Below, piece after piece: positions 2,626-28,552 of a stretch of DNA of 35,077 nt (position 1 is the first letter of the stretch; every line of letters begins with the position of its first letter). The position numbers and the translations under genes are program-made. The notes beneath the pieces are model-generated. The model was not told where the DNA came from. It saw only the letters and a program-made list of their open reading frames with translations, and did not search any database. Origin of the DNA: Alphaproteobacteria bacterium (GTDB lineage: Bacteria; Pseudomonadota; Alphaproteobacteria; Micropepsales; Micropepsaceae); NCBI GenBank assembly GCA_027456965.1, contig DAIDUA010000073.1, positions 1 to 35,077 of the forward strand, in the 5' to 3' direction.

Positions 2626-3132
2626 CTACATTTTCGCAAACGCCGCGGCCGCCGACGAGGCCAAGAGAAACAAACGGCGCGGTTGTCGCGGAAACCCCAC
2701 AAAGCCATACGCCTCGTAGAATTTTGCCGCGCGCTCGTCCTTGGCATCGACCACAATGGCGAACACCGCGAGCGTCTTGCTTGCAGCCAAGATGCGGCGC
2801 ACGGCGTCCGCCAGCAACAACTCGCCGATCCCAAGTCCGTGGGCCTTCTCCTCGCGCGCCAGCCGCCCGATCAGCGCCACAGGAATGGCATCATAGCGCG
2901 GCAGCTTGCGGGCGATCTCGTCCGGCAGATTCTCCAGGCTGAGCGTGAACGAACTGAGGCTGTAGAATCCGACAACACCCAATGCATCGTCCACGGCCAC
3001 AAACACGCGGGTGACATTGCGCCGCTCATCCTGGCTGGCCCGCCGGCGGAACCAATCGTCGAGTTCGGGCTGTCCGCAAGTGAAGCCGGCGCGCTCGTGC
3101 TGCTTTCCGAGTGGTTCAATCCTCAGTGCCAA
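2626..3132 (-). CDS. GNAT acetyltransferase toxin (TacT-like)
   Basis: 168 aa; FxCGQPELDDWFRRRASQDERRNVTRVFVAVDD...GLGIGELLLADAVRR; directly after DUF1778 gene. Confidence 0.85.
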   Translation of the reverse strand: MALRIEPLGKQHERAGFTCGQPELDDWFRRRASQDERRNVTRVFVAVDDALGVVGFYSLSSFTLSLENLPDEIARKLPRYDAIPVALIGRLAREEKAHGLGIGELLLADAVRRILAASKTLAVFAIVVDAKDERAAKFYEAYGFVGFPRQPRRLFLLASSAAAAFAKM

Positions 3133-3135
3133 TCG

Positions 3136-3426
3136 TCAGCCCATCACATCGCGATGTCGGCGCAGGGCCGCGATCAATTTGGCGGTGGGCTCCGGCGGAT
3201 TGAGAACGGCGGCCAGGAATGCATCCCGATTCGCGCCAGTGAGCACCATGCGCTCATGTTCATCGAGAACCCGGCGGGCACCTTCATAAGCCAGATCGCC
3301 GGCCGTCAGGCCGCTCACCGCCATGGCGCGCTGAATGAGCGCTTTGGCCGAGGTGGCAATGCGCAACTCCAATCGGTCCCTTTTGAGCTCTTTGGCGGGC
3401 GGCTTACGGCGCGAGGTGGCACGCAT
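3136..3426 (-). CDS. DUF1778 antitoxin (TacA-like)
   Basis: 96 aa; RLELRIATSAKALIQRAMAVSGLTAGDLAYEGARRVLDEHERMVL; paired with GNAT toxin. Confidence 0.85.
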   Translation of the reverse strand: MRATSRRKPPAKELKRDRLELRIATSAKALIQRAMAVSGLTAGDLAYEGARRVLDEHERMVLTGANRDAFLAAVLNPPEPTAKLIAALRRHRDVMG

Positions 3427-3483: not shown

Positions 3484-3753
3484 CTAGGACTTGGTTCGGC
3501 GGCGCCTTGGGGCCTTCACATTGAGGTTCAGAGCCGCTGCCGGGGATTTCTCATCCAGAAAATCCGCCGCGCGGCACCCCAAAGCTTGCGAGGCCTGCCA
3601 CAGCGTCAGAAGCGTAACGTTTTGCTGTCCCCGCTCCATGCTGCTGACATGGGCGCGGTCCACACCCATTCCCTCGGCCACCGCTTCCTGGCTCAGGCCG
3701 GCGGCAAGCCGGATACGCCGAAGATTCAGCCCGAAGACCTTGCGAATATCCAT
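3484..3753 (-). CDS. XRE-family HTH regulator, QseC-like (ATG at 3753; TTG at 3771 possible)
   Basis: LNLRRIRLAAGLSQEAVAEGMGVDRAHVSSMERGQQNVTLLTLWQASQALG; divergent from small DUF2285 gene. Confidence 0.8.
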   Translation of the reverse strand: MDIRKVFGLNLRRIRLAAGLSQEAVAEGMGVDRAHVSSMERGQQNVTLLTLWQASQALGCRAADFLDEKSPAAALNLNVKAPRRRRTKS

Positions 3754-3766
3754 CCGCAGGATGGAT
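3748..3766. promoter_or_regulatory. Dyad ATCCATCC-GCA-GGATGGAT overlapping the XRE gene start
   Basis: perfect 8-bp arms including the ATG at 3753. Confidence 0.6.
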
Positions 3767-3774
3767 GCCAATCG

Positions 3775-3978: not shown

Positions 3979-4248
3979 ATGCCCATTCCACCGTTCAAAA
4001 ATAAGCCGCCTTCCAGTCGACAGGTGACGCCCTATGATGAGCGCCATCTCAACACGTATCTTCTGCTCTTGGACGCCGATGACGCGGGCATAGACTGGTG
4101 CAGCGCGGTGTGGACGATCTTTCATATCGATCCCGAACGTGAGCCCGCACGGGCGCGTGCCGTTCATAAGAGTCACCTGGCCCGTGCGCGCTGGATCGCG
4201 GACGGCGCCTATCGTGATCTGCTGCGTCCATCACCGAAGAAGCAGTAG
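3979..4248 (+). CDS. Small DUF2285 protein, QseM-like antiactivator
   Basis: 89 aa MPIPPFKNKPPSSRQVTPYDERHLNTYLLLLDADDAGIDWCSAVWTIFHIDPEREPARARAVHKSHLARARWIADGAYRDLL; divergent from XRE gene. Confidence 0.75.
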   Translation: MPIPPFKNKPPSSRQVTPYDERHLNTYLLLLDADDAGIDWCSAVWTIFHIDPEREPARARAVHKSHLARARWIADGAYRDLLRPSPKKQ

Positions 4249-4386: not shown

Positions 4387-4752
4387 ATGTCACAGGGCGC
4401 AGATCGGCCGTCAGAAAAGCTCACCGACGAATCTCATCAACTGCAACGCTGTGACTTCGCCTGGGAGTTTCTTCGCCGCAATCGCCGCTATCGCAGAGAC
4501 TATTCGGCATTGCATCGGCAACAATCGGGCGGCCAGTCCGATGAGCGCATGATGGCAGCAAAGATGGCGCATTGGGGGCTGAGCTTTCGCCTGCGACCCG
4601 GCTCTTGCGGCGGGCCAAGTCCAGGTCCATTGGCGGCCGGAATTCGTGCCGACGGCGGTGCTGCTGACGCCCGCGCCACCGGGATATACGGCCGCGGCCA
4701 GTCAGCAGACGATCAACTTTGGCGCTGCGCTGGCCGACCAGACGGGGATTGA
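4387..4752 (+). CDS. DUF6499-type N-terminal half of FseA-like activator (zero-frame product)
   Basis: GGGAGGA RBS; CDFAWEFLRRNRRYRRDYSAL...MAHWGLSF; homology-like sequence ends at F(UUU) 4585-4587 and continues in the +1 frame. Confidence 0.75.
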   Translation: MSQGADRPSEKLTDESHQLQRCDFAWEFLRRNRRYRRDYSALHRQQSGGQSDERMMAAKMAHWGLSFRLRPGSCGGPSPGPLAAGIRADGGAADARATGIYGRGQSADDQLWRCAGRPDGD

Positions 4753-5167
4753 CGGCCGGCACGTCATCTTCACCGATCCCCGAGGCGAACATCGCGTCTT
4801 GCTGGTTCGCCCGGGACCCGATCAACCGCTCGCGATCGCCATTCCGCTCGACGAAGACTTCTCGCTTCGCCTGGCCGGCGCCCTGCGCTTTCAACACTGG
4901 CTGATGCGCCGTCCAGCCGGGCGTCTTCCGCGCTCGATGCGGCTCACCGCGCGCCACCGCGCCCGTTTGATGCTGATGCTGCGTGCCTGCGACATGCGCC
5001 AGGACGGTGCCACCTATCGCGAAATCGCCGCCGATCTCTTCGGCGCCAAAGCCGTCGCCGAACACGGCTGGAAAACACTGCCCGTGCGCGGCCGGACCAT
5101 CCGCCTGGTGGAAGATGCCGACACCATGATCGATGGCGGCTACTTGAATCTGCTTCGCGGCAAATAA
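4589..5167 (+). CDS. DUF2285 C-terminal half of FseA-like activator, reached by +1 shift; fused 4387-4587/4589-5167 product would be 259 aa
   Basis: +1 frame reads ACDPALAAGQVQVHWRPEFVPTAVLLTP...; joins WGLSF at UUU-C; no good independent start at the junction. Confidence 0.75.
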   Translation, partial: ACDPALAAGQVQVHWRPEFVPTAVLLTPAPPGYTAAASQQTINFGAALADQTGIDGRHVIFTDPRGEHRVLLVRPGPDQPLAIAIPLDEDFSLRLAGALRFQHWLMRRPAGRLPRSMRLTARHRARLMLMLRACDMRQDGATYREIAADLFGAKAVAEHGWKTLPVRGRTIRLVEDADTMIDGGYLNLLRGK

Positions 5168-5303
5168 CGATTTACATATCGTCAAGGGGTACGCGGGCAG
5201 GTAGCGCCGACTCCGTCATCCCCCCATCCGGCTTCTCTTCGCCATCGTGATCGCTCCCGCGCCGTCATCGACCGACAGCGCACCAACAACACCGGAGCTT
5301 CAC

Positions 5304-5684
5304 ATGAGCAACTCCTCCAGCGACCTGCCGCCGCGGCTTCTGCGCACGCCTGAAGCCGCCCGCTATCTCGGCCTGTCAGGCCGCACGCTTGAAAAACATC
5401 GTACCTATGGCACAGGCCCGGCCTATCATAAGCTCGGCGGTCGTGTCGTCTATGCGATCGACGACCTCAATATCTGGGCCGGTCAGGGATTGCGCCATTC
5501 GACCTCCGATCCGGGCACGGGCATCGTCCATCCGGCCAAGCGCCACAATACGCCGGCGCTCACCAACGACCGCGCATCCGTCCACGCAGGCAATCGGCGC
5601 GACACAAAACCTCCCAGCCTTGTTCGCGGCGATGGTCAGCCTACGAGCGGTAACAACGCAGCTTCTGCGCCGACCAAGCGCTGA
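5304..5684 (+). CDS. HTH (MerR/AlpA-like) DNA-binding protein, RdfS-like excisionase candidate
   Basis: LLRTPEAARYLGLSGRTLEKHRTYGTGPAYHKLGGRVVYAIDDLNIWA; located upstream of traF/rlxS block. Confidence 0.75.
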   Translation: MSNSSSDLPPRLLRTPEAARYLGLSGRTLEKHRTYGTGPAYHKLGGRVVYAIDDLNIWAGQGLRHSTSDPGTGIVHPAKRHNTPALTNDRASVHAGNRRDTKPPSLVRGDGQPTSGNNAASAPTKR

Positions 5685-5833: not shown

Positions 5834-6334
5834 ATGCATGTCACAAATCGCCAAGATTCTGCGCAACACACGATCATGCTCACCCATGTCGAGCTGACCT
5901 GGATCGAACAGCGCATCGAGCATTGGATACGCTTCGGGCGCTTCGCCGAAGACCATATCATCGACCGGCGGCGCCGCGTTGTCAGCTTCGCGCCCGGCAG
6001 TATCTTCGCCTTCGTGCGCTGGGCGTCCAATGATTTTGGGACCATCATTTCGCGCGTCGACATCGTGCGCGCCACGGCACACGGCGAGCCCTACACCACC
6101 CTGCCCTTCGTGCGTCCCGGCGGCGAAATCCTTCTGCGCATCCATGGCTGGGGGAAGGTCGAACGCGTACTGCAGATGATCGACACCGTGGACGCCATCG
6201 GCGTCGATCCAGCCGACGCGGCGCCGGATTACTGGCGCCATGTCCATAACCGTCTCACGGTCGCCGACGATCCGCGGCTCTACACACGCGCGCGCCACAT
6301 CGCTTGGCTGTTACGCAAGAGCCTCGCATCATGA
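5834..6334 (+). CDS. DUF2840 family protein
   Basis: 166 aa; LTHVELTWIEQRIEHWIRFGRFAEDHIIDRRRRVVSFAPGSIFAFVRW. Confidence 0.85.
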   Translation: MHVTNRQDSAQHTIMLTHVELTWIEQRIEHWIRFGRFAEDHIIDRRRRVVSFAPGSIFAFVRWASNDFGTIISRVDIVRATAHGEPYTTLPFVRPGGEILLRIHGWGKVERVLQMIDTVDAIGVDPADAAPDYWRHVHNRLTVADDPRLYTRARHIAWLLRKSLAS

Positions 6335-6843
6335 CACGTTTTGGCTATGTCATGACGACCTACTTCGTAACGCTGGCAATTGGGCTGTCGTCGCTATTTC
6401 ATCCGTCAGCGAGGCTGATCTGGAACGCGAGCGCCAGCGTACCGATCGGGCTTTATGCCGTGCAGCCGGGCAGCCCGCTCAAGGACGGCGATCTTGTCGT
6501 CGCCACGCCACCAGGACCTCTCGCGACTTTCCTTGCCGTGCGCGATTATCTGCCAAGGGGCGTGCCGTTGCTCAAGCATGTCGCGGCGTTGCCGGGACAG
6601 ACTGTTTGCCGTCACGGGCCCGTCATTACGATCAACGGAGCCGCCGTCGCATCCGCGCTGCCGCGTGATCGCGCCGGCCGTCCGCTGCCCGTCTGGCAGG
6701 GCTGCCACAGGCTTATGCCGAACGAAATCTTTCTCCTCAATCGCGCCGCACCGGACTCCTTCGACGGACGCTATTTCGGGGTATTGCCCGTCACCGCCAT
6801 CACCGCTCACGCCGTACCGCTTTGGATCTCCAAGGAGCAGTGA
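6331..6843 (+). CDS. traF: S26-family signal peptidase / conjugal transfer TraF
   Basis: ASASVPIGLYAVQPGSPLKDGDLVV...LPRGVPLLKHVAALPGQTVCR; ATGA overlap with upstream gene. Confidence 0.85.
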   Translation: MTRFGYVMTTYFVTLAIGLSSLFHPSARLIWNASASVPIGLYAVQPGSPLKDGDLVVATPPGPLATFLAVRDYLPRGVPLLKHVAALPGQTVCRHGPVITINGAAVASALPRDRAGRPLPVWQGCHRLMPNEIFLLNRAAPDSFDGRYFGVLPVTAITAHAVPLWISKEQ

Positions 6844-6845
6844 AG

Positions 6846-7742
6846 ATGGCGAGGACGCACTTTCAAATGATGATTCCTTTGTTCGGCCGCATGCTGCGCC
6901 ATTCCTTCGTCCCGGCCGGGCACGAAGCCGCCGCCGCGCGCAGCGGCGGTCCAGGGCGGCCTGTCGGACGGCGCGCCAGCGCCTTGCCCTGGACGGGGGC
7001 GAGCACGGTGGCAGACTGGCGCCAGTTCGGGACGGCGATGGGTATTGCCGCGATTGTGGCATCGCTGACGAGCGCGGCAAATGGCGCGACGGCTGCGCGA
7101 GTGATGTCGCCAGGTACGCCTTCAACGATGGATTCGCACCGCGATCCATCTGCCGGATTTGTGGATGAAGCTGCGCGGCGCTTCGGCGTTCCGGCGACAT
7201 TGCTGCACGCCGTCATGCTGGTCGAAAGTGACGGCAATCCCGCAGCAGTGTCGCCCAAAGGCGCCATGGGTCTGATGCAGATCATGCCGAAGACGTGGGC
7301 GGAGCTGCGCGCGCGTTATCACCTGGGCGCCGATCCATTCGATCCTCACGACAACATCGTGTCCGGCGCCGCCTATCTTCGCGAATTGTTCGACCGTTTT
7401 GGCGCAGCGGGTTTTCTTGCTGCTTACAATGCCGGGCCAAAACGCTTCGAAGAATATCTGGCAGGCCTTCGACCGTTGCGCGAGGAGACGACGGATTACC
7501 TTGCAAAATTGCAGATGACGCTTCCCGCTTTGCACATCGCCGCCACGACGAATGCAGCGGTTAACGTGGCGGATTGGCAGCGAGCAGGGTTGTTCGCGTC
7601 ATCACCGGCAGCGCGTCCACGTCCCGTGAACGGCACTTCCAACCAACGGACTGTCACGACATCGACGCCAGTTCTGTTTGCGCTGGCGCCGCAATCGAAC
7701 AGTTTGTTCGTGCACGGCGAACCTTCAGGAGACCCGCCATGA
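6846..7742 (+). CDS. Lytic transglycosylase (SLT domain)
   Basis: LLHAVMLVESDGNPAAVSPKGAMGLMQIMPKTWAEL...AAYNAGPKRFEEYL. Confidence 0.9.
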   Translation: MARTHFQMMIPLFGRMLRHSFVPAGHEAAAARSGGPGRPVGRRASALPWTGASTVADWRQFGTAMGIAAIVASLTSAANGATAARVMSPGTPSTMDSHRDPSAGFVDEAARRFGVPATLLHAVMLVESDGNPAAVSPKGAMGLMQIMPKTWAELRARYHLGADPFDPHDNIVSGAAYLRELFDRFGAAGFLAAYNAGPKRFEEYLAGLRPLREETTDYLAKLQMTLPALHIAATTNAAVNVADWQRAGLFASSPAARPRPVNGTSNQRTVTTSTPVLFALAPQSNSLFVHGEPSGDPP

Positions 7743-7745
7743 GAT

Positions 7746-8009
7746 GTGTCGCACCGCCTCGTGGGCTGTCGCGAGCGAGCGCAGGTTCGGAATGTCGGCG
7801 CAGGAAATTCCGGTACCCAACCAAGCGATGGCGAGATAAAAGCGCCGCCGTCGGTTTGGCGCATCTGGTTGGTTGGATTCATAATTTGGGGCATTGCGGG
7901 GTATTATCCTGCTGGCTCTTCATTCCGAAACACAAACAAATTCAGCACTTCGCGCGCCAGCCGCACTATCCCGCCAGTCGGATTCGGCCATGAAGACACG
8001 CGACGATGA
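7746..8009 (+). CDS. Putative small membrane protein
   Basis: 87-aa ORF with one TM-like segment WRIWLVGFIIWGIAGYYPAG; overlaps relaxase start. Confidence 0.35.
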   Translation: MSHRLVGCRERAQVRNVGAGNSGTQPSDGEIKAPPSVWRIWLVGFIIWGIAGYYPAGSSFRNTNKFSTSRASRTIPPVGFGHEDTRR

Positions 8010-9717
8010 CCTGCGCGTTCGTCCCGGCCGTATCCGCGACAAGAGTTTTGTCGGCCAAGTGATGCGGGCGGCGAAGAAGGCCGGCCATGTCGGCAAGCAT
8101 TTTGGCGGCGGCAGGACCGGCGCCACGCGATCCCAGTTCGGCCGCGGCCGCTGTGCCGCGTTGTTGCTGTCCATGCGTTCCCCCTCCCGCCGCGTCGTGG
8201 TGAAGGCACGCGTGGTCCGCCATCACGGTACCCGTTTCCGTTCGGCACCCCTTACCAGACACTTGACCTATCTCAAGCGCGAGGGCGTCACCCGCGACGG
8301 CAATGATGCCCACATGTTCGATGCGAACTCGGATGCCGTCGACGAGCTGGAATTCGCCGAGCGCTGCCAGGATGACCGGCACCATTTTCGGTTCATCATC
8401 TCCCCGGAAGACGCCGCAAAGATGGACGGTCTGCGCGCCTTCACGCGCGAATTGATGGTCGATGCGGAACGCGATCTGGGAACCAAGCTCGATTGGGTCG
8501 CTGTCGATCACTGGAACACTGACAATCCGCACATCCATATCCTGGTCCGAGGCCGCGCCGATGACGGCAAGGATCTCGTCATCAGCCGCGACTATATCAG
8601 TCGCGGTCTGCGCGCCCGCGCGTCCGAGCGCCTGACACTTGAACTCGGCCTACGCAACGAATTGGACGTTCGATCCGCCCTGGAAAAGGACGTCGAGGCG
8701 GAACGCTGGACGGACCTCGACCGGGCTCTGCGCAACGTCGCCGACGATGGCGGTGGTCTTGCAGACGTTCGGCCAAGCGTGACAGGCGAAGACCCGGAGC
8801 TGCGTCTGCTTCTGCTTGGCCGCGCCGCGAAGCTTGACCATCTTGGCCTTGCTGAACAGATCGCGCCGGGTTGCTGGACCCTGAAGCCCAATTTGGAGCA
8901 GACGCTACGTGAGCTCTCCATCCGCGGCGATATCATCAAGACCATGCACCGCGCGATGAGTGGCACCGGGCGTGAACCAGACGTTTCCGGCTTCGCCTTG
9001 CACGGCGACACAACCGCCGAGCCTGTGCTCGGCCGGCTTGTCAAGCGAGGGCTGCAGGACGAATTGAATGGCTCGGCCTACGCCGTCATCGAGGGTGTCG
9101 ACGGGCGTACCCATCATGTGATGTTCTCCAATCTCGAGATAACGGGCGACGCCAAACCCGGTACCGTTGTCGAAACACGCGCTTATGACGACGCCAAGGG
9201 TCGCAAGCAGGTTGCGCTTGCTGTCCGGTCCGACTTCACAATCGAGGCACAAATAACGGCACGCGGCGCAACCTGGATCGATCGGCAACTTCTCGCGCAA
9301 GAACCTTTCAGTAGTCGGGGTTTTGGCAGAGAAGTCCGCGCGGCGATGGATCGGCGCGCCGATCACCTCATCGCTGAGGGATTAGCCCAACGGCAAGGTC
9401 AGCGGATCGTCTTCGCGCGCGATCTTCTCAGCACGCTGCGACGGCGAGAGCTGGAGGAAGCGGCAGCAAAACTTTCGCTCGACACGGGCCTCGCCCATCG
9501 CCCATCCGCCGAAGGCGAACATGTGGGCGGCATCTATCGTCAGCGCGTGCCACTTTCATCCGGCCGCTTTGCCATGATCGACAATGGACTGGGCTTCCAA
9601 CTCGTGCCCTGGCGACCAACCTTAGAGCAACAACTCGGGCGACAGGTCTCGGGCGTTATGTCTTCTGGCGGCACGGTCGATTGGAGTTTTGGACGGAAAC
9701 GCGGACTGGGTGTCTGA
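7990..9717 (+). CDS. rlxS: Relaxase / mobilization nuclease with DUF3363 (RlxS type)
   Basis: 575 aa; HHFRFIISPEDAAKM..., DNPHIHILVRGRADDGKDLVISRDYISRGLRARASE relaxase motifs; adjacent to traF and lytic transglycosylase. Confidence 0.88.
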   Translation: MKTRDDDLRVRPGRIRDKSFVGQVMRAAKKAGHVGKHFGGGRTGATRSQFGRGRCAALLLSMRSPSRRVVVKARVVRHHGTRFRSAPLTRHLTYLKREGVTRDGNDAHMFDANSDAVDELEFAERCQDDRHHFRFIISPEDAAKMDGLRAFTRELMVDAERDLGTKLDWVAVDHWNTDNPHIHILVRGRADDGKDLVISRDYISRGLRARASERLTLELGLRNELDVRSALEKDVEAERWTDLDRALRNVADDGGGLADVRPSVTGEDPELRLLLLGRAAKLDHLGLAEQIAPGCWTLKPNLEQTLRELSIRGDIIKTMHRAMSGTGREPDVSGFALHGDTTAEPVLGRLVKRGLQDELNGSAYAVIEGVDGRTHHVMFSNLEITGDAKPGTVVETRAYDDAKGRKQVALAVRSDFTIEAQITARGATWIDRQLLAQEPFSSRGFGREVRAAMDRRADHLIAEGLAQRQGQRIVFARDLLSTLRRRELEEAAAKLSLDTGLAHRPSAEGEHVGGIYRQRVPLSSGRFAMIDNGLGFQLVPWRPTLEQQLGRQVSGVMSSGGTVDWSFGRKRGLGV

Positions 9718-9941: not shown

Positions 9942-10904
9942 TTAGCGCTCCTTTCGCGGCGCAGCGAGGAACGAAACGATCTCGCGCTGCACGTCCTTGT
10001 AGTCCTCGACCAGGGCATGACCGCCCGTCGGATAGATCACGGCCCGACCATCGGGCACGCCGGCGGCAATGAACTTTGCCCGATCAGCCCCGAACGCGTC
10101 GTCTACCGCGCTGATTGTCAGGACCGGGCATGAAATCTTCCCGAGGTCATAAGGCTCTGGAATCGTGGCGCTCCTTATGTCGAACTCCATTCCCTTCGTC
10201 CGCGGGCTTACCGGCAGAAGGTGTTCCAGAATTTTCTGCACCCGCGCCTTCTCGCTCGACTCGGCCGCGCGAACGACGGCCGGGTCCGTGCCCAGAATCA
10301 CCCTGGTCATCGCGGCAGGCAATATCGGCAAGAGCTTGATCGTCGCCCAAGCGACGAAGTCGGAACCGAACATTGCCCGAACGAAGGCCATGCGGGCACT
10401 GTTCCTTTGCTGCGGCATATAGGGCGCTGGAACGAGAAGCACCAATGCGTGACACCGGTTTGGGTGGCGAATCGCGAACTGCAATGCCGACCACTCGCCG
10501 GCGGAGATGGAGACGACGTCCACCTTTTGGACACGGAGGCGGTCCAGCAGGTCTGCATACGCGTCGGCCTGCTTGGCATTCGTCAGGTTGGCCGGCGATG
10601 CCGATCTCAGATAGCCGAATCGCGACGGAGCGATCAGCCGGTATCCGTAGGGGCCCAAAGGCCCGATCAAATCGAGACTCTGATCGAAGCCGCCGCCGGC
10701 ACCGTGGATCACCAGGACCGGCTCCCCGTGTCCCCGCAATGCATATTCCATGTCCCCGAAAGGCGTGGAGATCGTCTGGCTTCGGCCCACAAGGCACGCG
10801 TGCGCGCGCGACAAGTCGCGCAAGAACAGCACGTAGATCGCAACAGCAGCGATCGACAGGAAGGCGATAAAAATCATCAGGCTTTTACGTATGAGACCAC
10901 TCAC
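9942..10904 (-). CDS. Alpha/beta hydrolase with N-terminal TM segment
   Basis: VLVIHGAGGGFDQSLDL oxyanion loop, SISAG elbow, TGGHALVEDY catalytic His. Confidence 0.85.
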   Translation of the reverse strand: MSGLIRKSLMIFIAFLSIAAVAIYVLFLRDLSRAHACLVGRSQTISTPFGDMEYALRGHGEPVLVIHGAGGGFDQSLDLIGPLGPYGYRLIAPSRFGYLRSASPANLTNAKQADAYADLLDRLRVQKVDVVSISAGEWSALQFAIRHPNRCHALVLLVPAPYMPQQRNSARMAFVRAMFGSDFVAWATIKLLPILPAAMTRVILGTDPAVVRAAESSEKARVQKILEHLLPVSPRTKGMEFDIRSATIPEPYDLGKISCPVLTISAVDDAFGADRAKFIAAGVPDGRAVIYPTGGHALVEDYKDVQREIVSFLAAPRKER

Positions 10905-10918
10905 TGGCCAAGTGGTCT
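10894..10918. promoter_or_regulatory. Operator-like dyad AGACCACT-N9-AGTGGTCT overlapping the hydrolase start codon
   Basis: perfect 8-bp arms read directly. Confidence 0.6.
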
Positions 10919-10936
10919 ATAAGGCGCCGCGCCTCG

Positions 10937-10953
10937 ACATATCATTGATATGT
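10937..10953. promoter_or_regulatory. Operator-like dyad ACATATCA-T-TGATATGT
   Basis: perfect 8-bp arms, 1-nt centre, intergenic. Confidence 0.5.
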
Positions 10954-11087
10954 GTCAACGGGAGGACTTCATGCCCGTCGCCGCCGGCCAAAATGCATGC
11001 CGCCAAAATGCCGATGTTTCACGCGGAAGCGCTCCAAACCACGAATAGGGCCGCAAACGCGCGCAGGGACAAGTCTTCGCGCGAGGC

Positions 11088-11093
11088 TATAAT
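11088..11093 (+). promoter_or_regulatory. TATAAT -10-like element upstream of adhesin gene
   Basis: exact consensus hexamer 100 bp upstream of ATG 11194; no good -35. Confidence 0.35.
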
Positions 11094-11193
11094 CAATATC
11101 TCAAAACAACATCAGAGGCTGTTGCATACGAGCAAATGGCGCTCCTTTTTATCGTCTCCACTGGTGGCCCGTGAGGCAATGAGGAGACCAAAG

Positions 11194-14100
11194 ATGAGCA
11201 ACATTCGAAAGCGGACCAAGATCACATATCTGCTTCGTAGATTGCTGAAGCTTGGCGCGAGCAGACCGTTGCTACATCCAGGGTCGCGTACAAATGACAA
11301 CGTCTTCGCGCAAGTCGCGATCGCAGACAACCCGAAACGAAGTAACCGCAGAGCCGCGCTTCTGAGGTCGCTGACTGTTTCGGTCGCGTTCTTGATCCTT
11401 GTGCGGCCCGGGGCCGCCGACGCTCAAGCGGACGGAGGCGAGGGAGGGCCTGGCGACCCCCTTATTTGGATCGACGCGAATGCGACCGATCTCGGTGCCA
11501 AGGCGGACGCACCTGAGTCGATCGCGATCGGTGCTCAATCCGATGTCATCTATACCGGCACCAATTCCATTGCACTGGGCTATAATACCAATGTCTCGGC
11601 AGCAAACTCTGTCGCGATTGGGGCGAATGCCACCGCCACTCGCGGCGCACAGACCTACACCGATCCGTTTTCCGGGGTTACCGTCAGCTCGGCCGGAGAG
11701 GTCTCCTTTGGAAGTCTCGGCGCAGAACGCCAGCTCACCAACGTGGCGCCAGGATCAGCTGCAACCGACGCTGCTACCGTCGGTCAACTTGAAAGCGCTG
11801 TCGGCGGCATCCTTTCGCAGGCGAATACCTATGCCGACAACGCGACCTCGGGGATATTGGGTTCTGCGGAGTCCTACGCCAACGGTATCGGGTCCTCAGC
11901 TCTGACATCGGCAACCAACTACGCAAACAGCGTAGGTTCTTCGACTCTGAGTTCGGCAAATAGCTATACGAACTCGTCGAGCGCAGCGGCCCTGAGCGCC
12001 GCTCGCACCTATGCCGATGGCGTGGGTTCCTCGACGCTCACTTCGGCGAACAACTATGCCGACACATCGAGCGCAGCGGCGTTAACCGCTGCGAAAACCT
12101 ACGCCGTCGGCATCGGCTCTTCAACCCTGACTTCAGCCAATAATTTTGCGACAAGTTACGCCAATGGCGTCGGATACTCAACACTGACCTCGGCCAACAA
12201 CTATACTGACGCATCGAGCGCATCGGCGTTGGGTGTGGCAAAAACCTACGCCGATGGCGTCAGTTCCTCGACTCTGACTTCAGCCACCAACTTTGCGACC
12301 ACTTACGCCAATCACGTTGGCACTTCGACACTCACCGCGGCCAATAACTATACCGACGCGTCGAGCGCATCGACGTTGGGTGCGGAAAAAACCTACGCCA
12401 ATGGCGTCGGCGCTTCGACGCTCACCGCGGCAAACAATTATACGGACACATCGACCGCAGCGGTGTTAGCCACAGCGAAGACCTACGCGGATGGTGTCGG
12501 CTCATCGACGCTAACGTCAGCCAACAACTTCGCGACGTCCTCTGCCAACAGCGTCGGGGCCGCGACGCTCACGTCCGCAAACAATTATACGGACGTATCG
12601 AGCGCAGCCACGCTGGGCGCTGTCAAAACCTACGCGGATGGCATCGGCGCGGCGACTCTGACCTCGGCGAATAGTTTTACAACCACCTATGCCAATGGCG
12701 TTGGCGTTTCGACGCTAACGTCAGCCAACAACTATACCGACGCCGCAAGCGCATCGACATTGGCTGCAGCGAACACATACGCGGACGGTGTCGGAGCGTC
12801 GACTCTGACTGCGGCAAACAATTTTGCGACCAGCTATGCCAATGGCGTGGGTTCTTCAACGCTGACCGCGGCGAACAATTATACCGGCGCATCGAATGCC
12901 TCGACATTGGGCACGGCTGAAGGCTATGCGGACGGCGTCGGCTCATCGACATTGGCTGCAGCGAACACATATGCGGACGGTGTCGGGGCGGCGACCCTGA
13001 CCGCGGCAAATAATTTTGCAATGACCTATGCCGATGGCGTTGGGGCTTCGACGCTCACCTCCGCGAACAATTATACTGAAACATCGAACGCGGCGACGCT
13101 GGCCGCTGCCAAGACCTATGCGGACAGCGTTGGCGCATCGACATTGGCTGCGACGAACACCTACGCGGACGGCGTCGGGGCGTCAACCCTGACGGCGGCA
13201 ACCAATTTTGCAACGACCTACGCCGATGGCGTTGGAGCTTCGACACTCACCTCCGCGAACAACTACACCGACGCCTCGAGTACTGCGACGCTTGCTTCGG
13301 CCAACGGCTATGCCGACGCGTCGAGCGCTTCCACCCTGGTCGCCGCCAAGACCTACGCCGATGGGGTGAGTGCGACGACGCTCTATTCAGCGAACGTCTA
13401 TACAGATGCCATGGGCGCCACCACCCTCAGTTCCGCGGAGTTCTATACCGATACGAAGACAACCTATTTTGCCGCCAACTCAACCCTTGCGCCTGCCCAA
13501 GCCTCAAGCCTGGAGGCTATCGCGGTGGGTGGTGGTTCGATCGCATTGGCGCCCAATGCCGTCGCGGTTGGCTCCAACGCACAGGCCACCGGTGCCAGTG
13601 CTATCGCGATCGGCGTGAACGCGCTGGCAACGGATTATTCTGTCGCAGTCGGCAATACCGCCCTGGCCGGAAGCGGCGGAACGGCGCTCGGGGATTTTGC
13701 CACGGCTACGGGCAGCGGCTCCTTCGCTGGCGGCTACGGCGCGACTGTCCTTGTGACGGGCGGCGTCGCGCTCGGCCAGAACTCAAGCGTGACGCAGGTC
13801 AATTCTGTGGCCATCGGCGCAGATTCCACAGCCGGTCGCGGCGCACAGACCAATTACATCGACGCGATTTCGGGTGCCATGGCGAGTTCCGCTGGGGAAG
13901 TATCGGTCGGAAGCATCGGCGCGGAACGGCAGATCACCAATGTCGCAGCCGGCTCATCCCCCACCGATGCGGCCAATGTCGGCCAGGTACAGAGCGCCGA
14001 AGTACAAGCCGTGAACCTTTCCGAAAGCTACACCAACGCAACGGCAGGATCGCTCGTCTCCATGCTGAACAGTTACGGCTACAACACCTCTCCATCGAAC

Positions 14101-14673
14101 GGATCCAATTCCGTGGCGGTTGGTTCGGGGGCTGCCGCGACCGGTAACGATTCTGCGGCTCTGGGCAGCAACAGTTCTGCAACGGCTGACAATTCGGTGG
14201 CCATCGGTGCGGGCTCGACAGCGACACGCGGCTCGCAGACAAACTATAAAGACCCCATATCTGGAAAGACCACGAGCTCGGTTGGAGAAGTGTCCGTCGG
14301 CAGTGACGGAGCCGATCGGCAGATCACCAATGTCGCCCCCGGCACAGCGCCAACGGACGCGGCCAATGTCGGGCAGGTCCAGGCAGCGATCAGCCAGGCC
14401 GAAGGCTATACGGACACGCTGTTCGGCAAGGCATCGAGACAAACTTGGAGTGTCGCGGCGGCAGCGGCAGCGCTGGCCAATCTCCCCCAGGCGCCCAATC
14501 CCGGACAATCCATGATCGGCATGTCTTTCGGCTCATCGAGAGGCGAAGTCGGCTTCGCGGCCGGAGCCTCTTATTACACGCCCGACAACGGCATGATCAT
14601 TAAAGCCTCGGCCAGCTACAGCGCCGAGAGCGGCATGAGCGGCGGTATGGGCGTCGGCTTCATTCTAAACTAA
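11194..14673 (+). CDS. YadA-like trimeric autotransporter adhesin
   Basis: 1159 aa; GAGGAG RBS; signal peptide-like LLRSLTVSVAFLILVRPGAADAQA; head motifs NSVAIGA; three necks (RQxTNVAxGxxxTDAAxVGQ); C-terminal YadA anchor. Confidence 0.9.
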   Translation: MSNIRKRTKITYLLRRLLKLGASRPLLHPGSRTNDNVFAQVAIADNPKRSNRRAALLRSLTVSVAFLILVRPGAADAQADGGEGGPGDPLIWIDANATDLGAKADAPESIAIGAQSDVIYTGTNSIALGYNTNVSAANSVAIGANATATRGAQTYTDPFSGVTVSSAGEVSFGSLGAERQLTNVAPGSAATDAATVGQLESAVGGILSQANTYADNATSGILGSAESYANGIGSSALTSATNYANSVGSSTLSSANSYTNSSSAAALSAARTYADGVGSSTLTSANNYADTSSAAALTAAKTYAVGIGSSTLTSANNFATSYANGVGYSTLTSANNYTDASSASALGVAKTYADGVSSSTLTSATNFATTYANHVGTSTLTAANNYTDASSASTLGAEKTYANGVGASTLTAANNYTDTSTAAVLATAKTYADGVGSSTLTSANNFATSSANSVGAATLTSANNYTDVSSAATLGAVKTYADGIGAATLTSANSFTTTYANGVGVSTLTSANNYTDAASASTLAAANTYADGVGASTLTAANNFATSYANGVGSSTLTAANNYTGASNASTLGTAEGYADGVGSSTLAAANTYADGVGAATLTAANNFAMTYADGVGASTLTSANNYTETSNAATLAAAKTYADSVGASTLAATNTYADGVGASTLTAATNFATTYADGVGASTLTSANNYTDASSTATLASANGYADASSASTLVAAKTYADGVSATTLYSANVYTDAMGATTLSSAEFYTDTKTTYFAANSTLAPAQASSLEAIAVGGGSIALAPNAVAVGSNAQATGASAIAIGVNALATDYSVAVGNTALAGSGGTALGDFATATGSGSFAGGYGATVLVTGGVALGQNSSVTQVNSVAIGADSTAGRGAQTNYIDAISGAMASSAGEVSVGSIGAERQITNVAAGSSPTDAANVGQVQSAEVQAVNLSESYTNATAGSLVSMLNSYGYNTSPSNGSNSVAVGSGAAATGNDSAALGSNSSATADNSVAIGAGSTATRGSQTNYKDPISGKTTSSVGEVSVGSDGADRQITNVAPGTAPTDAANVGQVQAAISQAEGYTDTLFGKASRQTWSVAAAAAALANLPQAPNPGQSMIGMSFGSSRGEVGFAAGASYYTPDNGMIIKASASYSAESGMSGGMGVGFILN
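11830..13443 (+). repeat. Tandem coding repeat: 34 contiguous units (27 of 15 aa, 7 of 19 aa) in adhesin stalk
   Basis: units such as YADGVGASTLTSANN / FATTYADGVGASTLTSANN counted by hand; 538 aa x 3 = 1614 bp matches the coordinates. Confidence 0.9.
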
Positions 14674-14696: not shown

Positions 14697-16679
14697 ATGT
14701 CCGCGACCAAGATCCTCTGGGGTCAAGTACTCCTCGTCAGCATCACCGTGCTCGCCTTCCTCTGGGCCGCGACGGAGTGGACTGCGTGGCGTCTCGGCTT
14801 CCAGCCGCAGCTCGGCCATCCCTGGTTCGAGGTTTTAGGCTGGCCGTTCTATCAGCCGCCTGCGTTCTTTTGGTGGTGGTTTGCGTATGACGCCTATGCG
14901 CGCGGCATTTTCATCGAAGGCGCTTACATCGCCACATCTGGTGGCATTGCCGCGATTGTGGTTGCGATCATGATGTCGGTGTGGCGGGCGCGGGAGACCA
15001 AACGGGTCACCACCTACGGCTCGGCGCGCTGGGCTGAAACACGTGAAATCCGTCGCGCCGACTTGCTGGCTTGCAACGGCGTGCTGCTCGGCCGCTGGCA
15101 GAACAAATATCTCCGCCATGATGGTCCCGAGCATGTGCTGTGTTTTGCACCGACCCGCAGCGGCAAAGGCGTCGGTTTGGTGGTGCCAACGCTCCTGACC
15201 TGGCAGGACTCGGCCATCGTCCACGACATCAAAGGTGAGAACTGGACATTGACCGCCGGTTGGCGGGCCCGCTTCGGGCGCGTCTTGCTGTTCGATCCGA
15301 CCAACATTCTCAGCAGCGCCTACAATCCACTGTTGGAGGTTCGCCGTGGCGACTGGGAAGTCCGTGACGTCCAGAATATCGCCGATGTGCTAGTCGATCC
15401 GGAAGGCGCACTGGAGCGCCGCAATCATTGGGAGAAGACCAGCCATTCGCTCCTGGTCGGCACCATCCTGCATGTCCTTTACGTGGAACCCGACAAGACG
15501 CTCGCCGGCGTCGCAAATTTCCTCTCCGATCCCAGGCGCCCGATTGAGTCCACCCTCCGGGCGATGATGACCACGCCCCATCTGGGAAAGAGTGGCGTGC
15601 ATCCCGTCGTCGCCAGCACGGCGCGCGAGCTTCTTAACAAGAGCGACAACGAACGCTCCGGCGTGCTCTCCACCGCCATGTCGTTTCTCGGCCTCTATCG
15701 CGATCCCGTGGTCGCCAAAGTGACAAGCCGCTGCACCTGGCGTATCCGCGACCTCGTCGAAGGCGAGCGTCCCGCCACACTCTACTTGGTAGTTCCGCCG
15801 TCGGACATCAGCCGCACCAAGCCCCTGGTCCGATTGATCCTCAATCAGATTGGGCGACGCCTGACAGAGGAGCTGAATTCGAAAAACCGACGCCATCGCC
15901 TCCTGTTGATGCTGGATGAGTTTCCGGCATTGGGCCGGCTCGATTTCTTCGAGAGTGCCTTGGCGTTCATGGCGGGCTATGGACTGAAAGCATTCCTCAT
16001 CGCCCAATCGCTCAATCAGATCGAGAAGGCTTACGGCCAGAACAATTCAATCCTCGACAATTGCCGTGTGCGGGTGAGCTTCGCCACCAACGATGAACGC
16101 ACCGCCAAACGCGTCTCCGACGCACTCGGCACTGCCACAGAATTGCGCGCGATGAAGAACTATGCCGGCAGCCGGTTGAGCCCCTGGCTTGGACATCTAA
16201 TGGTGTCCCGCCAGGAAACCTCGCGGGCGCTCCTCACACCCGGCGAGGTGATGCAGCTCCCACCGGACGATGAGCTTGTGCTCGTCTCAGGTTGTCCTCC
16301 AATCCGCGCCAGGAAGGCGCGCTATTACGAAGACCGGCAATTGCAGGCGCGCATCCTGCCCCCTCCCAAGTTGATCCACGCCATCAAGGTCGGCCCGCCG
16401 TTAGAGACGCCGCGGACACAAGGCAAAGAATGGTCGGATACCGTCGTGCCACCGCCATCGGCACCGTCGGACGATCCCGCGAATGCCGGCATCCGCCGCG
16501 AACCCGAACTCCCCAAGCAGGAAGAGATTGCGCTCGAGCCGCACAAGTCTGCCCAGGAATTCGAGCCAGCCGATGACAAACCGGACGATGACGCCCAGCG
16601 CCTTCGCGCCTTGCGACACCAGGCCCGCGTTACCGCGCGGCAGGCTTCCCTCGATCCCGACGACGATTTGGGACTGTAA
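14697..16679 (+). CDS. traG: Type IV coupling protein TraG/VirD4
   Basis: 660 aa; HVLCFAPTRSGKGVGLVVPTLL Walker A; LLLMLDEFPALGRLDFFESALAFMAGYGLKAFLIAQSLNQIEKAYG. Confidence 0.95.
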   Translation: MSATKILWGQVLLVSITVLAFLWAATEWTAWRLGFQPQLGHPWFEVLGWPFYQPPAFFWWWFAYDAYARGIFIEGAYIATSGGIAAIVVAIMMSVWRARETKRVTTYGSARWAETREIRRADLLACNGVLLGRWQNKYLRHDGPEHVLCFAPTRSGKGVGLVVPTLLTWQDSAIVHDIKGENWTLTAGWRARFGRVLLFDPTNILSSAYNPLLEVRRGDWEVRDVQNIADVLVDPEGALERRNHWEKTSHSLLVGTILHVLYVEPDKTLAGVANFLSDPRRPIESTLRAMMTTPHLGKSGVHPVVASTARELLNKSDNERSGVLSTAMSFLGLYRDPVVAKVTSRCTWRIRDLVEGERPATLYLVVPPSDISRTKPLVRLILNQIGRRLTEELNSKNRRHRLLLMLDEFPALGRLDFFESALAFMAGYGLKAFLIAQSLNQIEKAYGQNNSILDNCRVRVSFATNDERTAKRVSDALGTATELRAMKNYAGSRLSPWLGHLMVSRQETSRALLTPGEVMQLPPDDELVLVSGCPPIRARKARYYEDRQLQARILPPPKLIHAIKVGPPLETPRTQGKEWSDTVVPPPSAPSDDPANAGIRREPELPKQEEIALEPHKSAQEFEPADDKPDDDAQRLRALRHQARVTARQASLDPDDDLGL

Positions 16680-16685
16680 GCAGCC

Positions 16686-17126
16686 ATGCGTACCAAGCAC
16701 ACCTTCCGCCTGCCGCCAGATCTTGCCGGCAAACTCGCCGACTATGCAGCTCGCAAACGCGTGCCCCAGGCGCTGGTGGTGGAAACTGCGCTCGCCTCGC
16801 ACCTTTCGCCCGATGGCGCGGATCGTTTGGAAGCTGCGCTGGCCCGCCGGCTAGATCGCATGACGCGGCAAATCGAGCGCCTAGAACGGCATGTCACCAT
16901 CTCGAACGAGGCGCTCGCCCTGTTTGTGCGCTTTTGGCTGACCAGCACGCCGCCTTTGCCGGACACGGCACAACACGCGGCGCAGGCGAAAGGCCGAGAG
17001 CGTTACGACGGCTTCGTCGAAGCGCTGGGCCGTCGTCTTGCGCGCGGCAAGACCCTCGCCGAAGAGATCACAGCTGATATCGGCGACGCCACGTCGACCA
17101 ACGCTCCACAGACCCGGCCGTCGTAA
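16686..17126 (+). CDS. CopG-like ribbon-helix-helix protein
   Basis: MRTKHTFRLPPDLAGKLADYAARKRVPQALVVETAL; position between traG and trbB. Confidence 0.8.
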   Translation: MRTKHTFRLPPDLAGKLADYAARKRVPQALVVETALASHLSPDGADRLEAALARRLDRMTRQIERLERHVTISNEALALFVRFWLTSTPPLPDTAQHAAQAKGRERYDGFVEALGRRLARGKTLAEEITADIGDATSTNAPQTRPS

Positions 17127-17243
17127 AAGCCAATCGCGCCGAACGCCTGTCTTTGTACGCCACTCTACGACGCTCGCATCTGAGCTGTTGCGCGCACGAT
17201 TTATCGCCCTTCTTAGTCACCCTCGCTGATCTATCGCTTCAAT

Positions 17244-17260
17244 GACAATGAAGCATTGTC
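17244..17260. promoter_or_regulatory. Dyad GACAATG-AAG-CATTGTC immediately upstream of trbB
   Basis: perfect 7-bp arms ending 12 nt before ATG 17273. Confidence 0.5.
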
Positions 17261-17272
17261 GAGGGCTCGCAC

Positions 17273-18238
17273 ATGACCAATGTTTCCGTTCGATCCGAAG
17301 CCTTCGCCCGTGGCGCGCGCATGTTACGCACGGCGCTCGGTGCTTCCATCGCCGGGTACCTCGAAGACCCCGGCATCGTCGAGGTGATGCTCAATCCCGA
17401 TGGAAGGCTTTGGATCGATCGGTTGTCGGGCGGGCTTGAGGACACCGGGTGCCGTGTTGCGCCCGCCGACGCCGAACGGATTGTGCGCCTGGTCGCGCAC
17501 CATGTGGGTGTCGAGGTTCATGCGGGCCGCCCACGCATTTCTGCCGAATTGCCGCAAAGCGGCGAGAGGTTCGAGGGGCTCATGCCACCCGTCGTGGCCG
17601 CGCCCTGTTTCGCCATTCGGCGCCCTGCTGTCGCGGTCTTCACGCTCGGCGACTATGTCGAGGCCGGCATCATGTCAGGTGTGCAGGCCGAGCTGCTACG
17701 GGTGGCGGTCCGGGAACGGAAGAATATCCTCGTTGCCGGCGGCACCTCCACCGGCAAGACCACGCTCGTCAACGCGCTGCTCGCCGAGGTCGCCAAGACC
17801 GGCGACCGTGTGGTGCTGATCGAGGATACGCGCGAATTGCAATGCGCGGCGCCCAATCTCGTCGCGCTGCGCACCAAGGACGGCGCGGCCTCGCTCTCAG
17901 ATCTCGTGCGCTCGTCGCTGCGGCTGCGCCCCGACCGCATTCCCATCGGCGAGGTGCGCGGTGCCGAGGCTCTCGATTTGTTGAAGGCTTGGGGCACAGG
18001 CCATCCCGGCGGCATCGGCACCTTGCATGCCGGGTCCGCGATTGGCGCGCTGCGCCGGTTGGAGCAACTCATCCAGGAAGCCGTCATCACCGTCCCACGT
18101 GCGCTGATCGCGGAGACCATCGACCTCATCGCAGTGCTCGCCGGCCGCGGTGCTGGGCGAAGGCTGGCCGAGCTTGCCACCGTGAATGGCCTCGGTCCTG
18201 CCGGCGACTACGTCCTCACCCAAACCGGAGAATCTTGA
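17273..18238 (+). CDS. trbB: P-type conjugative transfer ATPase TrbB
   Basis: [24 protein letters not shown] Walker [26 protein letters not shown]. Confidence 0.95.
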
Positions 18239-18561
18239 TGCTCTTCCATCGAGCCCGCGACCGCTTTGTCCTCGCATCGCTCTACGCCGCCTGTGTCCTC
18301 GCGACGGCGCCCGCATACGCCGCCGGCACCAACATGCCTTGGGAGCAGCCGCTGCAACAAATTCTGGACTCGGTACAGGGGCCGGTGGCCAAGGTGGTGC
18401 CGGTGATCGTCATCATCGTCACCGGTCTCAGCCTCGCATTCGGTGAGACGAGTGGTGGGTTTCGACGGCTGATCCAGATCGTCTTTGGTCTCAGCATCGC
18501 CTTCGCGGCCAGTTCCTTCTTCTTGTCCTTCTTCTCCTTCGGCGGCGGAGCGCTGGTGTGA
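18238..18561 (+). CDS. trbC: TrbC/VirB2 family pilin
   Basis: 107 aa signal peptide plus two TM; TGATG overlap with trbB. Confidence 0.9.
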   Translation: MLFHRARDRFVLASLYAACVLATAPAYAAGTNMPWEQPLQQILDSVQGPVAKVVPVIVIIVTGLSLAFGETSGGFRRLIQIVFGLSIAFAASSFFLSFFSFGGGALV

Positions 18562-18830
18562 TGAACCACGACGAGCCCATTGCTGGGTTCTATGCACCTG
18601 TTCATCGCGCCCTCATCGAGCCGATCCTGCTTGGTGGCGCGCCGCGAGCGGTCGCCATCATCAACGGAACGCTCGCCGCCGCCATCGGTCTCGGGCTTCG
18701 CCTCTGGATCGTCGGCGCGGTGATCTGGTTGCTCGGGCATTTGGCGGCGGTGGGGGCCTCCAAGCGCGATCCCGCCTTCGTCGACGTGGTGCGCCGCCAT
18801 CTGCGCTATCCGCAACATCTCGTCGCGTGA
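18561..18830 (+). CDS. trbD: TrbD / VirB3-like
   Basis: IAGFYAPVHRALIEPILLGGAPRAVAIINGTLAAAIGLGL; TGATG overlap. Confidence 0.9.
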   Translation: MNHDEPIAGFYAPVHRALIEPILLGGAPRAVAIINGTLAAAIGLGLRLWIVGAVIWLLGHLAAVGASKRDPAFVDVVRRHLRYPQHLVA

Positions 18831-18839
18831 GGGCGACCG

Positions 18840-21269
18840 ATGATGAATCTCGCCGAATACCGCCGCAAATCACACTGCCTGGCCGATTTTCTGCCCTGGG
18901 CTACACTGGTCGAGAAAGGCGTGATCCTCAACAAGGATGGCTCCTTCCAGCGCTCGGCGCGCTTCCGCGGCCCAGATCTCGACAGCGCAACGCCGGCCGA
19001 ACTCGTCGCCATTACCGCGCGGCTCAACAACGCGTTGCGCCGGCTCGGGTCCGGATGGGCGCTCTTCATCGAAGCCCAACGCCAGCCCGCCCATCGCTAT
19101 CCCCAGAATGCATTTCCCGACGCAGCCTCAAGCCTTGTCGACGCCGAACGCCGTGCGCAGTTCGAGGAAGAAGGTGCACATTTCGAGAGCCGGTATTTCC
19201 TGACCCTGGTCTGGCTACCCCCGCCCGACGATGCGGCCCGTGCCGAGGCGTGGCTCTATGAGGGACGATCCCGCGAGGGTGCCGACTGGCGTGCGGCCCT
19301 GGCCGCCTTCATCGACCGGACCGATCGGGTGCTGGCACTCATCGTAGGCTTCATGCCCGAGGCCGATTGGCTCGATGATCCCGAGACCCTTACTTATCTG
19401 CATTCCTGTGTCTCCACGCGGCGCCACCGCGTACGCGTGCCCGAGATACCGATGCACCTCGATGCCATTCTGGTCGATCAGGATATCGCAGGCGGCCTTG
19501 AGCCGCGGCTCGGCCGCGCCCATTTGCGCACGCTCACGATCATGGGTTTTCCCTCGCAGACTTGGCCCGGCCTGCTCGACGATCTCAATCGGCTGGCTTT
19601 TCCCTACCGCTGGTCGACCCGCGCCATCTGCCTCGACAAGGCCGACGCGACCAAGGTGCTCGGGCGCATCCGCAGGCAATGGTTTGCCAAGCGCAAATCC
19701 ATCATGGCGATCCTGAAGGAGGTCATGACCAACGAGACGTCGGTGCTGATGGATTCCGACGCCGCCAACAAGGCACTAGATGCCGACATTGCGCTCCAGG
19801 AGCTGGGCTCCGATCTTGTCGGTCAGGCTTATATTACGGCGACCGTCACCGTCTGGGATGAGAATCCGCGTATCGCCGACGATCGCCTGCGCCTCGTCGA
19901 AAAGACCATCCAGGGGCGTGACTTCACCTGCATACGCGAAACGGTGAACGCGATCGAGGCTTGGCTCGGCAGTCTTCCCGGCCATGTCTACGCCAACATA
20001 CGCCAGATGCCGGTCTCGACGCTCAACCTCGCCCATATGATGCCGTTCTCGGCGGTGTGGGCCGGACCGGAGCGTGACGAGCATTTTAAGGCGCCGCCGC
20101 TCTTCTTCGCGCGGACCGAAGGCTCGACGCCGTTCCGTTTTTCGCTCCATGTCGGCGATGTCGGCCACACCCTCGTGGTCGGTCCTACCGGTGCCGGCAA
20201 GAGCGTGCTGCTGGCGCTGATAGCGCTGCAGTTTCGGCGCTATGCCGGCGCGCAGGTCTTTGCCTTCGACTTCGGCGGGTCGATCCGCGCCGCCGCCCTC
20301 GCCATGGGTGGCGACTGGCACGATCTCGGTGGCGCATTTGCGGACGACATTACTGAGCCGGTCGCCTTGCAGCCTTTGGCGCGCGTCGACGATGCTGGTG
20401 AACGCGCCTGGGCGGCCGAATGGGTGGTGACACTCTTAGCCCGCGAATCCGTCTCCGTCACCCCCGAATTGAAGGAGCATCTCTGGTCGGCGCTGACCTC
20501 GCTCGCGTCCTCCCCGGTCACCGAACGAACGATCACTGGCCTGTCAGTTCTGCTCCAATCGAATGCGCTGAAGCAGGCCTTGCAGTCCTACACCGTGGGC
20601 GGTCCATGGGGACGCTTGCTCGACGCGGAAAGCGAGCGCCTGGGCGAGGCCGACATCCAAGCCTTCGAAACCGAAGGTCTCATCGGCACGGGCGCGGCGT
20701 CGGCCATCCTCTCCTACCTCTTCCATCGCATCGAGGACCGGCTCGATGGGCGCCCCACGCTCCTCATCGTCGACGAGGGTTGGCTCGCGCTGGACGATCG
20801 TGGCTTCGCGGGACAGCTGCGCGAATGGCTGAAGACACTGCGCAAGAAGAACGCGAGCGTCATCTTTGCAACGCAATCTCTCGCCGACATCGACGGCTCG
20901 GCGATAGCGCCCGCCATCATCGAAAGCTGTCCGACGCGGCTGTTCTTGCCCAATGAGCGCGCATTTGAGCCGCAGATTGCGTCCATCTATCGCCGTTTCG
21001 GGCTGAACGACCGACAGATCGAGATCCTCAGTCGGGCGACGCCCAAGCGCGACTACTACTGCCAGTCGCGGCGCGGCAATCGCCTGTTCGAACTGGGTTT
21101 GAGCGAAGTCGCGCTCGCCTTCACGGCCGCATCGTCCAAGATCGATCAGGCCGCCATCGCCGAGATATTCACCGTCCATGGCAAGAGCGGCTTTGCCGCC
21201 GCATGGCTGCGAACCAAAGGCCTCGATTGGGCAGCCGACATGCTCGCCAAACAGGAGATTACGCCATGA
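18840..21269 (+). CDS. trbE: TrbE / VirB4 ATPase
   Basis: 809 aa; HTLVVGPTGAGKSVLLALIALQFRRY; TLLIVDEGWLALDD. Confidence 0.95.
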   Translation: MMNLAEYRRKSHCLADFLPWATLVEKGVILNKDGSFQRSARFRGPDLDSATPAELVAITARLNNALRRLGSGWALFIEAQRQPAHRYPQNAFPDAASSLVDAERRAQFEEEGAHFESRYFLTLVWLPPPDDAARAEAWLYEGRSREGADWRAALAAFIDRTDRVLALIVGFMPEADWLDDPETLTYLHSCVSTRRHRVRVPEIPMHLDAILVDQDIAGGLEPRLGRAHLRTLTIMGFPSQTWPGLLDDLNRLAFPYRWSTRAICLDKADATKVLGRIRRQWFAKRKSIMAILKEVMTNETSVLMDSDAANKALDADIALQELGSDLVGQAYITATVTVWDENPRIADDRLRLVEKTIQGRDFTCIRETVNAIEAWLGSLPGHVYANIRQMPVSTLNLAHMMPFSAVWAGPERDEHFKAPPLFFARTEGSTPFRFSLHVGDVGHTLVVGPTGAGKSVLLALIALQFRRYAGAQVFAFDFGGSIRAAALAMGGDWHDLGGAFADDITEPVALQPLARVDDAGERAWAAEWVVTLLARESVSVTPELKEHLWSALTSLASSPVTERTITGLSVLLQSNALKQALQSYTVGGPWGRLLDAESERLGEADIQAFETEGLIGTGAASAILSYLFHRIEDRLDGRPTLLIVDEGWLALDDRGFAGQLREWLKTLRKKNASVIFATQSLADIDGSAIAPAIIESCPTRLFLPNERAFEPQIASIYRRFGLNDRQIEILSRATPKRDYYCQSRRGNRLFELGLSEVALAFTAASSKIDQAAIAEIFTVHGKSGFAAAWLRTKGLDWAADMLAKQEITP

Positions 21270-22009
21270 AGAAACTTCGTCTGCGCACAGCACTCACCAC
21301 CGGCGTCGCGATCCTGACCCTCGTCACCGCCGTCATTCCTGCTGAGGCACAATGGACTGTCTTCGATCCGGCCAACTACACACAGAATGTCCTGACGGCG
21401 GCCCGCGAGCTGCAGCAGGTCAATAACGAGATCCAAAGTCTCGAAAACCAAGCGGCCTCGCTCGCCAATCAGGCAAAGAATCTCGCCAGCCTGCCCTATT
21501 CATCGCTCGTGCAGCTGGATCAGTCGATCGCCCAGACCCAGCAGCTTCTCGCCAAGGCGCAGCGCATCGCCTATGACGTCACGACGATCGACCAAGCCTT
21601 CAGCCAGACGTATCCGCAAGGCTATTCCAGTTCGACATCCTCGCAGCAATTGCTCGCCGATGCGCAAACCCGCTGGCAGAATGCCCGCGCCGGCTATCAG
21701 GACGCCATGCGCGTGCAGGCGGTCGCGGTGCAAAACCTTGAGAGCACGCGCGCGCAAATTGACGCGCTGATCTCCGCTAGCCAGTCCGCTTCAGGCGCGC
21801 TGCAGGCGGCCCAGGCGGGGAACCAACTCATAGCGCTTGAGACCAAGCAACTCGCCGACCTCACTGCCGTCATAGCGGCGATTGCGCGTGCTCAGAGCCT
21901 GGACGGCGCCCGCGCGATCGAAACCCAGGCCCAAGCGCAACAGCAGCTTTTCAACTTCCTCAATTACGGACAGGGATACCGGCCCGGCTCCGCACAGATG
22001 TTTCACTGA
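21266..22009 (+). CDS. trbJ: P-type conjugative transfer protein TrbJ
   Basis: WTVFDPANYTQNVLTAARELQQVNNEIQSLENQA; operon position; ATGA overlap. Confidence 0.92.
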   Translation: MKKLRLRTALTTGVAILTLVTAVIPAEAQWTVFDPANYTQNVLTAARELQQVNNEIQSLENQAASLANQAKNLASLPYSSLVQLDQSIAQTQQLLAKAQRIAYDVTTIDQAFSQTYPQGYSSSTSSQQLLADAQTRWQNARAGYQDAMRVQAVAVQNLESTRAQIDALISASQSASGALQAAQAGNQLIALETKQLADLTAVIAAIARAQSLDGARAIETQAQAQQQLFNFLNYGQGYRPGSAQMFH

Positions 22010-22338
22010 TGCGCGCGCGGCTGTTCAGTTACCGTACCATCGTCCGCGCTGCCGGCTTCGCCCTTGTCGTCGCGGCGATCGTCGCGGCTGGCGTGCACCT
22101 CGTGCAGGACGGCAAGAACGTCAGGGGACTATCACTCGGTCCGGCATCGCTCACAGGTCCCCTCGCGCGCGAGCTGCCGCGCTGCCAATCGATCAATATG
22201 GTCGCGATGAATGACACGGCATGTGACGCGGCTTGGGCCGTGAACCACTACCGCATTTTCAGGTATCGCGCGCCGGATCGCGCCAAGTCCGCGCCATCTG
22301 CAGATCGGCCAGACAAATCAAAATCCCAGGATCGTTAA
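22009..22338 (+). CDS. Putative entry exclusion protein TrbK-alt
   Basis: 109 aa, one TM, RCQSINMVAMNDTACDAAWAVNHYRIF motif between trbJ and trbL. Confidence 0.85.
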   Translation: MRARLFSYRTIVRAAGFALVVAAIVAAGVHLVQDGKNVRGLSLGPASLTGPLARELPRCQSINMVAMNDTACDAAWAVNHYRIFRYRAPDRAKSAPSADRPDKSKSQDR

Positions 22339-22343
22339 AGGAC

Positions 22344-23621: not shown

Positions 23622-23623
23622 GG

Positions 23624-28488: not shown

Positions 28489-28552
28489 GCTCGCCTCCAC
28501 GAACCGGGCTTTCGATGTACCCAATTGGAGGCAATCCATGCGCTCGAAACAG

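Follow-up and report, generated by a model that had tools for sequence, protein, structure and literature searches.

A split fseA gene with a conserved UUU-C site in an ICEMlSymR7A-type conjugative element: a very probable programmed +1 frameshift

Introduction

FseA activates transfer of the conjugative element ICEMlSymR7A of Mesorhizobium japonicum R7A. It is the product of two genes, msi172 and msi171, fused via a low-frequency +1 frameshift (PMC10359603). Of 4709 listed FseA homologues, ~61% are encoded in two frames with a conserved +1 site, and the WGL motif beside that site is encoded by a ribosome-binding-site-like UGGGGG (PMC10359603). The same arrangement and frameshift are described for ICEMcSym1271, and the traI2-msi172-msi171 operon is under quorum sensing (PMC5882170). 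Both the FseA family and the division of its gene at a conserved +1 site are thus already published and widespread, and the copy described here is a further member. Outside this family, an SD-like purine run also lies upstream of the +1 slip in prfB, the gene for release factor 2, as it does at the fseA site. The two sites differ in that only prfB has a stop codon at the shift, in their slippery codons (CUU in prfB versus UUU in fseA) and in their spacing. RovC of Yersinia, as far as is known, is encoded in one frame. It has a C-terminal DNA-binding domain in common with the FseA reported below (PDB 6xz5, E 9.4e-7, residues 195-256) and differs from FseA in being an activator of type VI secretion (PMC10359603).

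Here we analyse a 35,077-nucleotide stretch of DNA (hereafter the window), contig DAIDUA010000073.1 from an assembly of an alphaproteobacterium of the Micropepsaceae. We demonstrate the structure of its fseA gene, the conservation of the slip site, the surrounding gene cassette and the family membership. By every feature testable from sequence, the gene falls within the described FseA family. The recoding family to which it belongs was known, and it is a clean further example; the case also shows that plain gene calling would either break this element's activator in two or overlook it.

The split fseA gene and its join

The fseA gene of the window lies on the forward strand and, as in ICEMlSymR7A, combines DUF6499 and DUF2285 domains encoded in two frames, with a +1 join beside a UGGGGG-coded WGL. 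The zero frame starts at an ATG at 4387. Its 5' part (4387-4587) carries an AWEFLRRN motif at residues 25-32, matches PF20109 (Trans_reg_dom, formerly DUF6499; 1.8e-16) and ends in WGLSF. Codon 67 of this frame is TTT (4585-4587), followed by C at 4588; together these bases form the UUU-C site (4585-4588). Six nucleotides 5' of the slippery codon, TGGGGG (4573-4578) resembles a ribosome-binding site and encodes the W-G of WGL, giving the junction sequence TGGGGGCTGAGCTTTC, at a position that matches the split relatives described below. The +1 frame, already open before the junction, continues to 5167 and encodes ACDPALAAGQVQVHWRPEF... immediately after TTT-C. This 3' part (4589-5167) matches PF22792 (DUF7012; 1.8e-16) and PF10074 (RovC_DNA-bd, formerly DUF2285; 3.7e-34). 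Joining UUU to UUC unites all three domains in one protein of 259 amino acids, and the peptide predicted across the join runs from WGLSF into ACDPALAAG (WGLSFACDPALAAG...).

These results bear out a preliminary description of the locus, which had read a DUF6499-type start ending in WGLSF, a +1 frame resuming directly after the UUU and C, and a seamless 259-residue product, and had likened the gene to the msi172-msi171 fusion. It had also placed the zero-frame stop at 4752, about 55 codons past the site. By open-reading-frame analysis the stop occupies 4750-4752, and we count 54 codons beyond TTT. An unshifted ribosome would translate this tail (4588-4752). Tail length varies from 2 to 104 codons among homologues (median 5), and a function of its own is therefore unlikely; the longer-than-median tail in the window gene weighs little against the frameshift reading.

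We aligned the joined product with L035 (43% identity) and L101 (36%), relatives in which one frame encodes the whole protein. Both run continuously and without a gap across the join, and in L035, L101 and the joined window protein alike, 14 residues separate the Phe of WGLxF from the Trp of the conserved block that follows. The WGLxF Phe codon is TTC in single-frame L101, compared with TTT in the split genes. This alignment bears on whether the DUF6499 and DUF2285 proteins might instead be translated separately and act as a complex without fusion. Possible +1-frame starts do exist, such as a GTG at 4646, and QseM of R7A binds the DUF6499 part alone (PMC10359603). However, starting at that GTG would drop the conserved stretch ACDPALAAGQVQVHWRPEF, the single-frame relatives are fused at precisely the join, and the constraint on TTT and its next base, documented below, lacks an explanation unless slippage occurs. 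We consider separate translation highly improbable.

Conservation of the slip site

We drew relatives from the 100 genomes nearest to the window's own, from a protein alignment across a genome collection and from a class-wide PF20109 search. They come from many assemblies, isolates included, and the frames of both halves were set by profile in every locus. The fetched loci comprised 91 distinct split relatives, which are mutually related and were partly gathered by an N-terminal motif, so that the counts that follow are not independent trials. The shift is +1 in every one (91/91) and always falls at the WGLxF motif. The slip codon is TTT in 90 of the 91. After it comes C in 85 of these 90 and T in the other five (L026, L078, L097, L099 and L117), never A or G. 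TGGGGG, coding W-G, stands just 5' of the slip site in 83/91. The agreement among the split genes exceeds chance: TTT makes up only 29 of 92 Phe codons, and GGG 40 of 291 Gly codons, in sampled open reading frames of the window, which has a GC content of 62.6%. One split relative, L032, has TGT in place of TTT (near 5571-5600) and a longer gap to rdfS; it is possibly decayed.

A junction lying elsewhere in homologues, or lacking UUU-C, would have spoken against the preliminary description. The junction sits at the same place in all 91 relatives, with TTTC in 85 and TTTT in five. Since tRNA-Phe reads both UUU and UUC, its re-pairing demands a pyrimidine after UUU, and the cases with T (UUU to UUU) are compatible with this mechanism as well. 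The modest addition of this survey to what was known is that only pyrimidines (C, rarely T) follow UUU, in agreement with tRNA-Phe re-pairing.

The same pattern weighs on two further explanations of the break. One is a sequencing or assembly error that placed a single extra base in a single-frame fseA. The source, a metagenome assembly, is fragmented into 224 contigs and 67% complete, and single-frame relatives do exist in L035 and L101, but an identical +1 break occurs at the same codon in the 91 distinct relatives. Because dozens of independent assemblies share the break at the same base, we regard a base error or a private mutation as practically ruled out and give the extra base very little credence. 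The other is a genuine frameshift mutation that made fseA a pseudogene, for which the incompleteness of the metagenome-assembled genome might be cited; it is hardly likely, given that both halves are intact with full domain matches, the break coincides exactly with the conserved slip site and those neighbouring transfer genes that we examined are intact as well. The preliminary description had favoured a programmed frameshift over both a pseudogene and a base error, and the shared motif upholds that preference. A programmed +1 frameshift in the fseA of an ICEMlSymR7A-type conjugative element is by far the strongest explanation of the locus and is very probably correct.

A model for FseA expression

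Slippage and its rate, FseA activity, inhibition by QseM and the regulatory actions are all transferred here by analogy with R7A. On this model, translation would begin at 4387, and most ribosomes would stay in the zero frame, their product being DUF6499 followed by a meaningless tail. In a minority of cases, with the ribosome-binding-site-like UGGGGG probably causing a pause, slippage would occur at UUU: the P-site tRNA-Phe would shift from UUU to UUC one base downstream, bringing the ribosome into the +1 frame to make the 259-residue FseA. FseA would be expected to switch on rdfS just downstream and thereby trigger excision and transfer; the QseM homologue encoded next to it would block FseA by binding its DUF6499 part.

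A more speculative and, on balance, unlikely extension is that QseM catches nascent DUF6499 at UGGGGG/UUUY, coupling shift and inhibition during translation, with fseA here perhaps uncoupled from direct quorum-sensing control. A qseM gene immediately precedes fseA, in the same orientation, in 56 of the 58 surveyed loci that span 10 kb or more, and the antiactivator may therefore be made beside the pausing ribosome.

The conjugative element and its regulatory sites

The window element brings together the ICEMlSymR7A-type gene set of rdfS, traF, rlxS, trb, qseM and qseC, and traR and traI. Upstream of fseA, the qseM-like gene (3979-4248, +) encodes a DUF2285-only antiactivator homologue whose best PDB match is QseM (7uqt, E 5.7e-12); its PF10074 score is under that profile's cut-off. 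Divergent from it is a qseC-like gene for an XRE-type helix-turn-helix protein (3484-3771, -; HTH_3, 3.9e-14), whose position is conserved, on the opposite strand in 45 of the same 58 loci. Downstream of fseA lies an rdfS-like gene for a recombination directionality factor (5304-5684, +; HTH_17; best PDB match 8dgl RdfS, E 3.1e-9). Domain matches then identify a DUF2840 protein (5879-6334, +), a TraF-like S26 peptidase (6325-6843, +), a lytic transglycosylase of the SLT type (6846-7742, +) and an RlxS-like relaxase (DUF3363; 8008-9717, +), the last with an uncertain start codon in a frame open further upstream. The genes for rdfS, DUF2840 and traF are downstream of fseA in 56/58 of these loci. 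Pfam matches place traG and the trb mating-pair genes (TraG, TrbB-like, TrbE-like and TrbI) at 14697-26486 (+). A LuxI/TraI-type autoinducer synthase (27856-28539, -; PF00765, 7.9e-48) and a LuxR/TraR-type regulator (28593-29330, -; PF03472 and PF00196) follow. Unlike in ICEMlSymR7A, qseM and rdfS are the immediate neighbours of fseA in the window, one on either side, and no traI2 gene precedes fseA.

We examined the regulatory sequences around these genes. An alignment of 86 upstream regions revealed a GGGG...CTTCGTCnTCCnCCC block conserved ahead of rdfS (5168-5303), which is possibly an FseA box and promoter. Between fseA and rdfS, a search for inverted repeats that required an exact seed of 6 nt returned none. 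Between traR and traI, a perfect 18-bp palindrome, CCTCTAAGGGTTTAGAGG (28553-28570), is a candidate lux/tra box. Neither this palindrome nor a similar site was found near fseA, the only perfect lux-box-like palindrome found being the one that adjoins traI, and there is no clear sign that quorum sensing controls fseA in the window element.

The start of the contig already lies within the element. A search of the window for an integrase gave no match; two matches lie on other contigs. At the far end, a tRNA-Gly(gcc) gene (29720-29794, -) lies between traR and glnE with its 3' end facing the element. The tRNA-Gly and glnE come after traR, and the element therefore probably ends near 29720; this tRNA-Gly(gcc) beside glnE is its likely integration site. 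A search for a second attachment site with the tRNA-Gly region found nothing closer than a diverged match (74%), which lies on a different contig.

Two further features were observed along the element. At 2626-3426 (-), a gene for a TacA-like antitoxin (PF08681) precedes one for a GNAT acetyltransferase, and the two form a probable element-borne toxin-antitoxin pair of the TacAT type. Between the relaxase region and traG, a 1260-residue protein (10891-14673, +) with many ...YADGVGSSTLTSANNY... repeats resembles a trimeric autotransporter adhesin.
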